NCBI RefSeq assembly: GCF_016937535.1
Contig: NZ_JAFHKK010000012.1
Location: forward strand, 1 to 64,000
DNA from: Sulfurospirillum tamanense
GTDB taxonomy: Bacteria > Campylobacterota > Campylobacteria > Campylobacterales > Campylobacteraceae
Direction of reading: 5' to 3'
Length of the DNA stretch: 64,000 nucleotides
Both the position numbers and the translations under genes were made by a program. The stretch's first letter is position 1. Every line of letters starts with the position of its first letter. Positions 5,759 to 32,646 of the stretch are shown one piece after another. The notes under the pieces are model-generated. The model was given only the letters and a program-made list of their open reading frames with translations, was not told the DNA's origin and made no database searches.

Positions 5759-6319
5759 CTACAGCGCCGCTTCGTATTCGTGCGGGTGGTTGAGGTTGGT
5801 AAAGGGCGCGGTTTCATCAAATTCCACATACACCGCGTTGGCGCGTTCTAGTAAGATACCCAGTTTATGGTCTCCTTGGCAGGCCAAAGTGTTGGCAAGA
5901 GGAGCAAGGGAGCTGTGGTAGAGGCCACACAAAGGGTGGCGGGTGTGCGGGTCGCGGGGGATGAGTGCGTTGGCGTGGGTGGCTTGGGCGGCCTTCCATA
6001 GGGCCTCAATGTGTTTTTTTTCCACAAACGGGGCGTCCACACTCAGGCAAAAAACATAGGTGTCAGTAAAGTGTTCTAACACCGAAGAAAGCGCGACCAT
6101 GGGTGAAAAGCTCTCTTGTTCGGTGTCTAAAATGAGCGAAAATTCTCCGTTAAATTTGTCGGTTTTGGTGCTTACATGTAAGGAGCTAAACAGCGGCAAA
6201 AGGCGGGAGGCTTGGTAGTGGGTGAGGGTGGCGTGTCCGTGAAAAGGGAGCAAGGATTTGTCTTGCCCCATGCGCGAACTTTTTCCCCCGGCGATGATGA
6301 CACAGGGGAAGGGAAACAT
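5759..6319 (-). CDS. mobA: Molybdenum cofactor guanylyltransferase MobA
   Basis: 186 residues, nucleotidyltransferase fold. It joins GMP to molybdopterin to make the MGD form of molybdenum cofactor used by DMSO-reductase-family enzymes such as periplasmic nitrate reductase and formate dehydrogenase. The signature IIAGGKSSRMGQDKSLL sits at residues 8-24; the catalytic metal-binding aspartate is in LSVDAPF, and ALIPRD and HPLCGLYH follow as in MobA. Its ATG overlaps the leuC stop at 6319, so it is translated behind leuC although the pathways are unrelated. No other Moa/Moe gene is in the window. Confidence 0.9.
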   Translation of the reverse strand: MFPFPCVIIAGGKSSRMGQDKSLLPFHGHATLTHYQASRLLPLFSSLHVSTKTDKFNGEFSLILDTEQESFSPMVALSSVLEHFTDTYVFCLSVDAPFVEKKHIEALWKAAQATHANALIPRDPHTRHPLCGLYHSSLAPLANTLACQGDHKLGILLERANAVYVEFDETAPFTNLNHPHEYEAAL

Positions 6320-7584
6320 TATAAATCCCTTGGGTCGGCGATTTTCCCAGCAATGGCAGAAGCGGCTGCTACTGCGGAGTTGGCCAAATAAATCTCACTG
6401 GTGCGGTCTCCCATGCGGCCCACAAAGTTGCGGTTGGTGGTGGCCACACAACGCTCTCCTTTGCCTAAAATCCCCATGTAGCCACCAAGACATGCGCCGC
6501 AGGTGGGGTTGGAAAACACGCCGCCTGCTTCGATGAAGATGTCTACGAGCCCTTCTTTTTGGGCTTGTTGGGCGATTTTTTGGGTCGCTGGGGTGATGAT
6601 GAGGCGGGTTTTGCGCGCCACACGTTTACCCTTTAAAATCTCCGCGGCGATGCGTAGGTCGCTGATGCGTCCGTTGGTGCAACTGCCGATGAAAACTTGG
6701 TCGATGGCCAAATCGTCTTTGACTGCTTGGCGCACGCTTTTGCCATTACTGGGCAAGAACGGATACGCGATAACAGGGTCAAGGTTGCTCACGTCCACTT
6801 CGAGGGTTTGCACATACGTCGCGTCGGCGTCAGAATAAAAATACTTGGGCTGACGGGGTAAAGTTTTGTCCGCTAAAAAGGCTTTGGTGATCTCATCTGC
6901 AGCGATGATGCCGTTTTTGGCACCCGCTTCGATGGCCATGTTGCACAAACTAAAGCGGTCGTCCATCTTTAAATGTGCAATAGCATCGCCCATGAATTCG
7001 AGGCTTTTGTACAGGGCGCCGTCCACCCCGATTTGGCGGATGATTTCAAGGATGAGGTCTTTGCCGTAAATGTGCTGACCAGGTTTTCCTGTAAAGACCA
7101 CGCGGATGGCTTCGGGTACTTTAAACCAGTTGCGCCCTGTAATCATCGCATAGGCCAAATCCGTCGAACCCATGCCCGTAGCAAAGGTGCCAAGGGCGCC
7201 GTGGGTACAGGTATGGCTGTCTGCGCCGATGATGACGTCGCCTGGGACGATGAGTCCTTTTTCAGGCAAAAGGGCGTGTTCGATACCCATGTCTTTTTCG
7301 TCAAAATAGTGCTTCAAGTCGTGCTTGTAGGCAAACTCACGGCTGATTTTAGCTTGGTTGGCACTAGCGATGTCTTTGGCGGGAATGTAGTGGTCCATGA
7401 CGATGGAAAAACCGTCGGGATTGGCCAGTGTGGTCGCGCCACTTTCTTCAAAGGCACGGATGGAAATGGGCGTGGTGATGTCGTTGCCGATGACCATGTC
7501 GATGGGGCTTTGGACGATTTGGCCAGCTTTTGCTTCAAGGGCACAGTGGTCGGAGAAGATTTTTTCGGTGATGGTTTGTTGCAT
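6319..7584 (-). CDS. leuC: 3-isopropylmalate dehydratase large subunit
   Basis: 421 residues, the shorter bacterial/archaeal LeuC (HacA-like) type of the aconitase family. It isomerises 2- to 3-isopropylmalate in leucine synthesis with a [4Fe-4S] cluster. Visible: GADSHTCTHGALG, IGSCTNGRISDL and NPTCGACLGGYMG, which carry the three cluster cysteines, and NRNFVGRMG near the end. It needs the small subunit LeuD, which is not next to it; the neighbour downstream is mobA. The gene is the first of its unit, starting just after the foldback element in the intergenic region. Confidence 0.93.
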   Translation of the reverse strand: MQQTITEKIFSDHCALEAKAGQIVQSPIDMVIGNDITTPISIRAFEESGATTLANPDGFSIVMDHYIPAKDIASANQAKISREFAYKHDLKHYFDEKDMGIEHALLPEKGLIVPGDVIIGADSHTCTHGALGTFATGMGSTDLAYAMITGRNWFKVPEAIRVVFTGKPGQHIYGKDLILEIIRQIGVDGALYKSLEFMGDAIAHLKMDDRFSLCNMAIEAGAKNGIIAADEITKAFLADKTLPRQPKYFYSDADATYVQTLEVDVSNLDPVIAYPFLPSNGKSVRQAVKDDLAIDQVFIGSCTNGRISDLRIAAEILKGKRVARKTRLIITPATQKIAQQAQKEGLVDIFIEAGGVFSNPTCGACLGGYMGILGKGERCVATTNRNFVGRMGDRTSEIYLANSAVAAASAIAGKIADPRDL

Positions 7585-7608
7585 GGGAACCTCGTTAATG
7601 GCGATGCG

Positions 7609-7780
7609 CGTGCCTAGTGTCTCTCATTTGGGAAAGTTGCGTTTTTTCCTGCGGAGCGCTAAAGCGGTCTCTTTGGATGGCAAAACTCGGCTACGCCTCA
7701 AACAGTTGCCATCCATCCCAAGGGACCAGACACCCCTTTAGCTAAAAACGCAAATCCCTGCTTCGTGCCACTAGGCACAC
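7609..7780. repeat. Large foldback (nested inverted-repeat) element in the leuC-rqcH gap
   Basis: The 306-bp gap 7585-7890 is mostly one imperfect inverted repeat. Matching arms, outside to inside: GTGCCTAGTG (7610-7619) with CACTAGGCAC (7769-7778); TTGCGTTTTT (7637-7646) with AAAAACGCAA (7744-7753), flanked by GGGA/TCCC; GGTCTCTT near 7667 with AAGGGACC near 7720; and a perfect GGATGGCAA (7675-7683) with TTGCCATCC (7706-7714) closing a 22-base loop. The whole could fold as a ~170-nt hairpin RNA on either strand. It has no ORF I can support. It may be a MITE-like element or a structured RNA. Confidence 0.75.
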
Positions 7781-7826
7781 GTTTAAAAATTGGGTCGATT
7801 CTAGCAAAGTTTGGTTTAAAAGCGGG

Positions 7827-7832
7827 TATAAT
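7827..7832 (+). promoter_or_regulatory. Promoter -10 element of rqcH
   Basis: A perfect TATAAT preceded by GCGGG lies 58 bases before the GTG start of rqcH. No clear -35 hexamer is seen, as is common in Campylobacterota sigma-70 promoters. Just upstream is the end of the foldback element. Confidence 0.6.
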
Positions 7833-7890: not shown

Positions 7891-9216
7891 GTGAAACAGT
7901 ATCAACTCCAAGAACTTGCCCAGTATTTATCCCACTTTCGTAAAATCCACGTTATCGAACGGGTGGATGATATGGTGCTTAAAATCGTGTTTGACCGACA
8001 CGAGCCGCTTTTTTTTGACCTGCGCCGTGGGGATGCCCATGTGTTTATGTGTGAAGATTTTAAACGTGCCAAAGTCTATGGTGCGCCTTTTGATGTGTTG
8101 CTACGCAAGTATTTTGCCAAGGCGACACTCTTACATGTAGAGGTGCCCGAGGGCAATCGCATTATGCGTTTACATGTAAGTGCTAGCAACCAGTACAAGG
8201 CGAGCGAATACGTGTTGCAGTTGGAGTTTACGGGGCGCAATACCAATGTCATTATGTTAGACACCCAAGAGATCGTCCAAGAAGCGTTGCGGCACATTGA
8301 CGCGAGTGTTTCGTTTCGTTCGGTCAAGGTTGGGGAGCCTTTGTTAGCGCTTCCACCGCGGGAATTTTCAGAAACCAAAGCCCCTTTTGTGTTGCCCGAA
8401 GCACTTTTTGAAGCGTATGAAGAGCGCAACAGCGCCAGACTTACCCAGGCGATTTCCCTTAAAAAAGCGCAATTGGCGAAAAAACTGGAGCGTTTTCGTG
8501 CACACTTGGGAAAACTTGAAAGCGAAGAAGAGTTAGAAGCAAAAGCCCAAGTGTTGTACTACGAGGGTTCTTTGGTGTTGGCTAATTTACACCGCATTCC
8601 GCCGTATGCACCGCAGGTTGAAGTGGAAGATTTTGAGCAAAAGCCGTACACATTGAACCTTCCTCCAAACGCCAGAACGCCCCAAGAAGCGGCCAATCTA
8701 CTCTTTTCTCAGGCAAAAAAACTGCGCCAAAAAGCCAGTTCGCTGCACATCGAACGGGAAAATCTAGAAGGAAAGATTGCCTTTTGGGAGCGCCTTGATG
8801 GGGTGCTTGGGCGCGCTAAGAGTGTAGAAGAGTTGAACATTTTATTGCCCAAGCAAACCCACGCCAAAAAGACCCAGCGGGAAAATCTTTCGTATGAGAG
8901 TTTTTACATCGAAGGCCACAAGGTCATGGTGGGAAAAAACGAAAAAGGAAACATTGCCCTGCTTAAGGAGGCGAAAAAAAGTGATGTATGGTTACATGTA
9001 AAGGATATGCCCTCTTCTCATGTCATTATCCGTACCGATAAGCAAAGTGTGCCCTCTCAAGTGCTCTCTTTTGCAGCAAAGTTATGCGTAGAATTTAGCC
9101 AGACTCAAGGGGGAAATTATTTGGTCGATTATACACCCAGACGAAATGTCAAAATGGTGCAAGGTGCCCTTGTGCATTATGTGGAGTATCAGACGCTAAG
9201 CGTCACAAAGGAGTAG
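7891..9216 (+). CDS. rqcH: RqcH/NFACT-family ribosome quality control protein
   Basis: 441 residues. NFACT-N-like region about 1-180 (MRLHVSASNQYK, LEFTGRNTNVIMLD), coiled-coil middle about 185-310 (rich in Lys/Glu, ERENLEGKIAFWERL), and an NFACT-R (DUF814) domain from about 320 with the diagnostic WLHVKDMPSSHVII and YTPRRNVKMVQGA. Family members bind stalled 50S subunits and direct alanine tailing of the nascent chain. It is shorter than Bacillus RqcH (about 570 aa), as in other Campylobacterota by my recollection. Start is GTG with GAAGGAT upstream. Three copies of the palindrome or its variant lie in it, one coding the conserved WLHVKD motif. Confidence 0.88.
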   Translation: MKQYQLQELAQYLSHFRKIHVIERVDDMVLKIVFDRHEPLFFDLRRGDAHVFMCEDFKRAKVYGAPFDVLLRKYFAKATLLHVEVPEGNRIMRLHVSASNQYKASEYVLQLEFTGRNTNVIMLDTQEIVQEALRHIDASVSFRSVKVGEPLLALPPREFSETKAPFVLPEALFEAYEERNSARLTQAISLKKAQLAKKLERFRAHLGKLESEEELEAKAQVLYYEGSLVLANLHRIPPYAPQVEVEDFEQKPYTLNLPPNARTPQEAANLLFSQAKKLRQKASSLHIERENLEGKIAFWERLDGVLGRAKSVEELNILLPKQTHAKKTQRENLSYESFYIEGHKVMVGKNEKGNIALLKEAKKSDVWLHVKDMPSSHVIIRTDKQSVPSQVLSFAAKLCVEFSQTQGGNYLVDYTPRRNVKMVQGALVHYVEYQTLSVTKE

Positions 9217-31119: not shown

Positions 31120-32646
31120 TTGAATTTAAATAAACTTATTATTAAGCCAACATTACAGTGCACGGCCGATTGTTTTGGGTGTGTTTCTAGACGTTCTTTG
31201 CATAAAGAAAAGCGAAAACTAGAACAAGTAACCCTATGGCGGTGGAAAGAAATTTTAGAAGAAGCGGTTGCTCTGGGTTGCAGGAATCTTGAAATCAGTG
31301 GGGGAGAGCCCACTCTATATAAAAATTTATTAGAAATAATTGAGCTAGGAAAAAGGCTTGGTTTACATGTGCATATGAATACAAATGGGAGCATGATTAA
31401 TGATGCTTATGCTGAAAAATTAATGGAATCAGGACTTGATAGCATTATGCTGTCTCTATATAGCCACGATGCAAATACTCTAGATTCCATGAGGAGAAGC
31501 AAGGGTCTGTGGAAAAAAGCTACAGCTACAGCAGCAGCAATAAATAAGGCAAGAATAAGGTTCCCAAACTTTAACTTTTACACTCAAACCATATTGTGTC
31601 GAGAAAATTTTAAAGATTTTAATCATCTGATAGCGTTGCATTATAGTATCGGTTCAGACAGAATGGCAATCTCTTATCTGGAGGGGGATTTCCAAAAAAA
31701 ATTTTTACTTAAAAAGGATGAAATTAAGTATTTTCGAGAAACAGTTATTCCCAAAAGCATTAGTTTAGTTAGTGAGCTTGGGATTTATAATAAAAGAGAG
31801 GCTGTTGGTGCTTTAAAAATGTTATATGCTGAAGAGATTAGTACTCTTGATGATTTCTCTCAAGGCATTTACTGGAAAAATAAAAAGTGTTCTGTTCCGT
31901 CCAGCTCGGCATTAATTCTTTCAAATGGCGATATTCACCCATGCAATATTGTGGAATACGCCCATAAACCTATTATGGGAAATATCATAAAAAATAACTT
32001 AACCGATTTATGGAATTCGGACTTGTGGAATCAGTATCGAATTCATTTGCATGAAAAATGTGAACTTTGTCCAATGAATATTCACACCTCGCTTGGGCTT
32101 AATGAATTTAAATTTACTAGAATGACCCAAGAAGAGCTTGATAAATTAAATATTTTGGCAGGTTCTCTCCCTAGCTCAAGTAATATTGTTGAGATTGGTT
32201 CTTATTACGGCGCATCATCCTTGGCTATTGCAAAAGGAATTAGCCTAAAAGAAAATGCAATACTTTTTTGTATTGACACGTGGAAAAACACATCAATGTC
32301 GGAAAGTGATAAAGATATTTATGAGGAATTTTTAGTAAACATAGATACACATAAGCACTTGATTAGGCCAATTAGGGGGTATAGTCACAATGTGCACAAT
32401 CAGATAAAACATCTTGCAAAAAGTGGAATCGATATGCTTTTTATTGATGGTGATCACTCGTATGAAGGCGTTAAGAGGGATTGGGACTTGTACTCTCCCA
32501 TGCTAAAAAGTGGTTCTGTGGTTATTTTTCATGATGTTGGATGGGCCGAAGGGGTAAAAAAAGTTATAAGAGAAAATGTGAAACCCGTTGTATTTAAGGA
32601 GTCAAATTTTGAACTACCAAATATGTATTGGGCCTGGATAAAGTGA
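31120..32646 (+). CDS. Radical SAM/SPASM protein fused to a class I methyltransferase
   Basis: 508 residues, TTG start with GAAAGG upstream. N-terminal radical SAM about 1-250: CTADCFGC gives the CX3CX2C cluster motif, EISGGEPTLY is the GGE motif. A SPASM-like region about 260-330 holds CSVPSSSALILSNGDIHPC and CELC. The C-terminal ~170 residues form a Methyltransf_24-type domain: IVEIGSYYGASSLAIAKG, FCIDTW, IDMLFIDGDHSYEGVKRDW, VVIFHDVGW. Fusing the two activities in one chain is unusual. The substrate is probably a sugar or glycan intermediate, by context only. A+T-rich like its neighbours. Confidence 0.85.
   Translation: MNLNKLIIKPTLQCTADCFGCVSRRSLHKEKRKLEQVTLWRWKEILEEAVALGCRNLEISGGEPTLYKNLLEIIELGKRLGLHVHMNTNGSMINDAYAEKLMESGLDSIMLSLYSHDANTLDSMRRSKGLWKKATATAAAINKARIRFPNFNFYTQTILCRENFKDFNHLIALHYSIGSDRMAISYLEGDFQKKFLLKKDEIKYFRETVIPKSISLVSELGIYNKREAVGALKMLYAEEISTLDDFSQGIYWKNKKCSVPSSSALILSNGDIHPCNIVEYAHKPIMGNIIKNNLTDLWNSDLWNQYRIHLHEKCELCPMNIHTSLGLNEFKFTRMTQEELDKLNILAGSLPSSSNIVEIGSYYGASSLAIAKGISLKENAILFCIDTWKNTSMSESDKDIYEEFLVNIDTHKHLIRPIRGYSHNVHNQIKHLAKSGIDMLFIDGDHSYEGVKRDWDLYSPMLKSGSVVIFHDVGWAEGVKKVIRENVKPVVFKESNFELPNMYWAWIK

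Follow-up and report, generated by a model that had tools for sequence, protein, structure and literature searches.

The window, the whole 64,000-nt stretch of DNA analysed here, carries the divergently oriented genes leuC (6319–7584, minus strand), encoding the large subunit of 3-isopropylmalate dehydratase of the aconitase family (PF00330, E = 8.6e-98), and an rqcH/NFACT-family gene (7891–9216, plus strand; PF05833, E = 2.1e-25). The 306-bp gap between them is mostly taken up by a foldback, a near-palindrome of ~175 nt composed of nested stems whose best limits are 7607–7781. We assign the element to the minus strand, which carries the conserved core described below, is the better folder and corresponds to the sense of the leuC mRNA. 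Fold energies of -68.2 kcal/mol (plus strand) and -73.5 kcal/mol (minus strand) were obtained, compared with shuffle means of -44.6 and -51.4 kcal/mol (z = -6.1 and -5.2, respectively), and the energy of the foldback was matched by none of 200 shuffles. A chance origin of the foldback is excluded by this shuffle folding. In agreement with the first-pass annotation, which had described nested arms able to form a hairpin of ~170 nt, both the arm pairings and the z scores support such a structure.

From the outside inwards, the outer arms (P1; 7607–7619 and 7769–7781) pair at 12 of 13 positions, and stem P2 (7637–7646 with 7744–7753) pairs at all ten and shows compensatory changes among relatives; on the minus strand its 7744–7753 arm reads TTGCGTTTTT followed by AGC, which is kept as TTTTTAG in relatives. 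Adjoining P2 is a lateral hairpin with a GNA triloop, TCC-GCA-GGA (7647–7655, minus strand), and TCC-GNA-GGA is kept in most type-1 relatives (a second type, with a different outer part, is described below). Stem P3 (7658–7672 with 7728–7742) pairs at 13 of 15 positions, with two-sided changes in all 13 of its model pairs; an alternative pairing, 7666–7680 with 7713–7727, also reaches 13/15. A second lateral hairpin, TCCCTTGGGA (7716–7725, minus strand), occupies the position of the GCC-GNA-GGC hairpin of the relatives. Stem P4 (7674–7683 with 7706–7715; 10/10), which is helix 4 in the covariation test, leads to the conserved apical core, AACTGTTTGA-GGC-GTA-GCC-GAGTTTT (7682–7707, minus strand), whose short apical stem covaries across genera. 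The element scored 128.7 and 109.6 bits with covariance models R1 and R2, respectively, the latter being built from the window element and its relatives.

The statement of the first-pass annotation that no ORF, rRNA or tRNA explains the foldback holds. No tRNA was found in the window and no Rfam family scored above its gathering score for the element; the mechanically called ORFs that cross it on the plus strand, antisense to leuC, are without support. Two Rfam matches listed for the window do not touch the element and fail to reach their own gathering scores. A match to a trypanosomatid snoRNA (7911–7980, inside rqcH; E = 0.0058), far under its gathering score, is attributed to chance. A match to 6S RNA (RF00013) was absent from the host genome.

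Sequence inspection predicts a -10 box for leuC (TAGAAT, 7798–7803, minus strand), which is kept in sister genera lacking the element, and one for rqcH (TATAAT, 7827–7832, plus strand), which was placed with the help of the same comparison. The sister genera retain the stretch GATTCTAGCAAAGTTTGGTTTAAAAGCGGGTATAAT, in which two overlapping promoters can be read. The foldback had been described as lying between divergent promoters; the promoters are indeed divergent, but the predicted elements overlap at ~7798–7832, and the foldback is not midway between them but on the leuC side. It is thus probably situated within the untranslated leuC leader, ~10 nt past the start predicted near 7791. In two sister genera (G009 and G012) leuC and rqcH likewise diverge, separated by 76 and about 146 bp, and no foldback is present; several more genera have comparable divergent pairs a short distance apart, and R2 gave zero matches at the rqcH loci tested in other genera (L004, L005 and L031). 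Apart from the host genome (G000), the element is present at the leuC-rqcH site only in the metagenome-assembled genome Kmv14 (G001), whose gap is 97% identical to that of the host, the element being no better conserved than the remainder of the gap. Judged from these gene arrangements, the foldback is an insertion specific to the host genus, because other genera keep divergent leuC and rqcH genes with short gaps and without a foldback.

Searches of the host genome by DNA similarity, end motif, loop words, stem words and R2 yielded no second copy with a foldback, so that the check proposed in the first-pass annotation, a search for further copies, returned a single copy in its own genome; the accompanying condition that "no copies elsewhere" would speak against the proposal would have misled if confined to the host genome. 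The host genome is also the sole R2-positive genome of its own family (f1). On reading the flanks by eye no target duplication was recognisable around the window copy, and searches of plasmid and phage DNA for similarity to the window element gave nothing useful. A weak R2 match at 31603–31719 of the window (19.3 bits, E = 0.13) did not adopt the architecture of the element on folding and is probably due to chance.

Independently of the foldback, the palindrome TTACATGTAA occurs at 32 sites in the 64 kb (0.08 expected from shuffles), both within genes such as rqcH and between genes (for example at 1173, 6172, 8170, 8992, 10982, 24100, 51166 and 62362), often flanked by CTTTACATGTAAAG. It is frequent in the examined pieces of G001, G155 and G207 and absent from those of G364 and family f7, and it looks like an uptake sequence or a similar genome-wide signal.

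Relatives of the element were found widely in the order. In a DNA search of 399 Campylobacterales genomes the apical core was matched in several families, twice with the flanking stem included. The pattern AACTGTTTGA-N(5-12)-GAGTTTT was present in 29 of 299 genomes at unrelated loci, part of these matches being chance occurrences inside genes; a reversed control pattern also gave scattered matches. In well-formed cores the spacer folds as a short hairpin, and the two sides of its stem vary together (GCGAAGC, GCGTAGC, ACGAAGT, GACGAAGTC, GGCGAAGCC, GGTGTAACC and GGGCAAAGCCC); on folding, each of these cores caps a long foldback. Elements of family f7 match the whole architecture of the window element: a variable outer stem, a conserved internal loop, a stem ending in TTTTTAG and a variable stem are followed by a lateral GCC-GNA-GGC hairpin, the inner stem with the core, and a lateral TCC-GNA-GGA hairpin. 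R1 gave 20 matches in eight f7 genomes, with E values down to 6e-38. With R2, 68 of the 399 Campylobacterales genomes and 32 of 88 genera were positive, which is a lower bound given the strict filters, and the elements found are often multi-copy and intergenic. Other families contain a second form that differs in its outer part (type 2), and in some there is a third that differs at the tip. Several type-2 elements are arranged as inverted pairs ~150–270 bp apart, some giving folds of ~500 nt (L269, L270, L271, L272, L273 and L073). Homologues adjoin mnmG/ribE, an ABC-F gene, a BrnT toxin gene and others, in both orientations; the names mnmG and ABC-F at the loci of genus g49 were read off the flanking sequence. 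On plasmid pILYOP01 of Ilyobacter polytropus (L212; Fusobacteriota) a foldback with the core precedes a GTTACTTTTC/GAAAAGTAAC hairpin, which suggests spread past Campylobacterota. Matches to the core pattern in viral contigs rarely form the apical hairpin, and most look like chance. A description of the family was found neither in Rfam nor in the open-access literature, and apparently it has no existing name.

Evidence for movement comes from relatives in two genomes, G364 and G376. Genome G364 (genus g39) contains near-identical 182-bp copies at unrelated sites, with 23-bp terminal repeats and the ends CACGGTAATTCAAC. Among seven complete copies in G364 and G376, three are flanked by exact 9-bp repeats (ATTAATTGG, AATATTTAT and TCTATTTTT); of the other four, one has an 8/9 repeat, two have 9/10 over 10 bp and one has none. 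A 74-bp internally deleted derivative in these genomes has GCTAACGCT on both sides, again an exact 9-bp repeat. A search of G364 and G376 for an autonomous partner with shared ends recovered the end pattern only in short, truncated or contig-edge copies, the draft assemblies being broken at copies. Multi-copy sets with 75–96% identity are present in G081, G132, G156 and G240. Different f7 species retain elements at identical loci, a persistence that pure selfishness does not require. At one locus (L265; G062 C37:11000-23206) foldbacks alternate with a BrnT toxin gene plus a CopG-type antitoxin gene and with a small ORF that occurs twice; this cassette-array-like region also holds a diversity-generating retroelement (reverse transcriptase, bAvd and a candidate target protein).

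The first-pass annotation had also proposed looking for compensating base changes among relatives, and these are abundant. In an unfitted alignment of seven type-1 elements, two-sided compensatory changes were present in 26 of 44 predicted pairs. In a 44-sequence alignment, 38 of 44 pairs had changes on both sides, 92.6% of cells could pair (66.4% when shuffled), and two-sided cells numbered 393, compared with 114 +/- 9 after shuffling and 79–102 when the partners were slid; as this alignment was fitted to the model, pairing is favoured in it, and the seven-sequence alignment is the cleaner test. Among orthologous elements of genus g49 (at mnmG, ABC-F and a third locus), most pairs likewise had more two-sided changes than independence of the two sides would give. 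Conservation is seen in the interior fold and the apical core; the end sequences differ by lineage yet stay self-complementary. As judged from the alignments, the folded shape is far better conserved across the family than the sequence.

One strand carries the fold preferentially. On the core strand, G.T outnumbered A.C mismatches 55 to 12 in four helices (18 of the 55 G.T in one column) and 61 to 6 in single-sequence folds. Of 64 elements, the core strand was a better folder than the complementary strand in 59 with RNA parameters and in 57 with DNA parameters, and 34 of the 50 triloops on the core strand are C(GNA)G; all these counts come from related elements and are thus not independent. 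The heptamer d(GCGAAGC) forms an unusually stable DNA mini-hairpin, and tips of this kind suggest a possible single-stranded DNA form of the element. Template switching between the arms, considered as the sole cause of the palindromes, fails to predict the G.T-over-A.C bias and the conserved loops.

Together these results make it likely, though not certain, that the window foldback represents one copy, probably inactive and of old insertion, of a non-autonomous, non-coding MITE-like family of roughly 180–250 bp that occurs across the Campylobacterales. We classify the family as MITE-like on several grounds: the elements are short and non-coding with inverted ends (12/13-bp outer arms in the window, 23-bp repeats in G364), target duplications of 9–10 bp accompany recent copies in G364 and G376, and dispersed copies occur in relatives, the host genome having one copy only. 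The suggestion of a MITE-like mobile piece made in the first-pass annotation thus gains from the multi-copy homologues with target duplications in related genomes, but not from the host genome, where further copies are lacking; for the window copy, mobility is presumed because its relatives move. Counting against this reading are the single host copy without a recognisable duplication, the failure to find an autonomous partner in G364 and G376, the retention of f7 elements at identical loci, and end sequences that vary between lineages, unlike those of an ordinary MITE family. Among known systems, QMITE2 of Coxiella is similarly non-coding, about 180–200 bp long, intergenic and strongly folded, and has 23–29 bp terminal inverted repeats and 7–9 bp direct repeats (PMC10969869), whereas the part conserved across genera here is the interior fold with the apical core, the ends being self-complementary and varying by lineage. 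The 127-bp ERIC/IRU repeats are also near-palindromic and non-coding, lie between genes where they are transcribed, and affect mRNA in a way that depends on their orientation (PMC2229807); they have a TA terminal motif, in contrast to the 9–10 bp duplications and branched covarying arms of the present family, to which they are not known to be related in sequence. NEMIS/Correia elements resemble it as short mobile hairpins near genes, and RNase III processing of their RNA hairpins has been proposed (PMC2229807), but they have a TA motif at their ends and differ in size, structure and phylum. REP/REPIN sequences and attC sites share folded, strand-specific palindromic DNA with the family, and differ from it in length, ends, copy number and target duplications.

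Other readings of the foldback were weighed against this background. Domestication, in which an element of mobile origin gives a core-strand transcript that now serves the cell (in mRNA stability, RNase III processing or as an sRNA) and whose fold is under selection, appears unlikely to us. It would account for the g49 foldbacks being kept at the same loci across species with compensatory changes, for the better folding of the core strand (59/64) with its preference for G.T over A.C, and for the position of the window copy, whose core strand is leuC sense and lies just past the predicted start; at the mnmG locus, however, the promoter reading into the element belongs to a gene to which the core strand is antisense, the gene and orientation vary among loci, and the element in G000 and G001 is conserved no more than the rest of the gap. 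For some copies, notably those fixed at shared loci in genus g49, a retained cellular role keeps a small probability. A structured leucine-pathway leader, either an attenuator or riboswitch-like, controlling leuC, as the first-pass annotation had suggested, is very improbable. Apart from the location in the predicted leuC 5' leader, the observations run against it: no intrinsic terminator and no Rfam match was found, the reading frames of the leader are not leucine-rich (as the annotation itself had remarked of a leader peptide), the leuC leaders of sister genera lack the foldback, and homologues adjoin unrelated genes in either orientation.

Two further explanations invoke folded DNA. That they belong to the REP/REPIN-type palindromes, which a Y1 (RAYT) transposase mobilises, seems hardly probable: the elements are far longer than REPs (20–40 bp; PMC3733652), branched, low in copy number and flanked by 9-bp target duplications, and a GTAG/CGTC foot was not seen on inspection, even though they share a palindromic, intergenic and strand-specific nature and some type-2 elements form inverted pairs 150–270 bp apart. 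Slightest of all is the chance that the foldback is an attC-like recombination site, folded as in integrons. Strand-specific folding, variable arms with conserved pairing, and the G062 locus, where elements are interspersed with the BrnT toxin and antitoxin genes, the small ORF found twice and the retroelement described above, speak for such a site; GTTRRRY/RYYYAAC boxes were not seen by eye at the ends, the window copy and most others are solitary, and 9-bp duplications as found at the G364 copies are not an integron outcome. Of the "paired-strand recombination relic" proposed earlier, the involvement of one particular strand's folding survives, but its identity as an attC site is not supported, the ends being without boxes by eye.

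Returning to the MITE-like family, the element would have inserted into the leuC leader before the split of the two known species of the genus. The leuC transcript would now include it as a long hairpin in the 5' leader, and any influence on leuC expression would be a by-product of mRNA structure. Folding of the core strand may matter for how the elements spread or are maintained, since the arms change without loss of pairing and one strand folds better. More tentatively, and as a possibility we rate below even chances, the mobilising machinery might read a folded single strand by its shape and apical core instead of by its terminal sequence, still leaving duplications of 9–10 bp; this would explain the conserved interior with variable ends, and the maintenance of pairing through sequence turnover.

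The analysis thus describes an element family that occurs in roughly one in three of the Campylobacterales genera sampled and is absent from Rfam, with distant kin in Fusobacteriota. It supplies annotators with a search model and an explanation for leader and spacer hairpins of these genomes that does not involve gene-specific regulation. The conservation pattern is the reverse of that of ordinary MITEs, the interior fold being kept and the ends being free, which raises the question of whether a transposition system can recognise the shape of DNA or RNA rather than the sequence of the ends.
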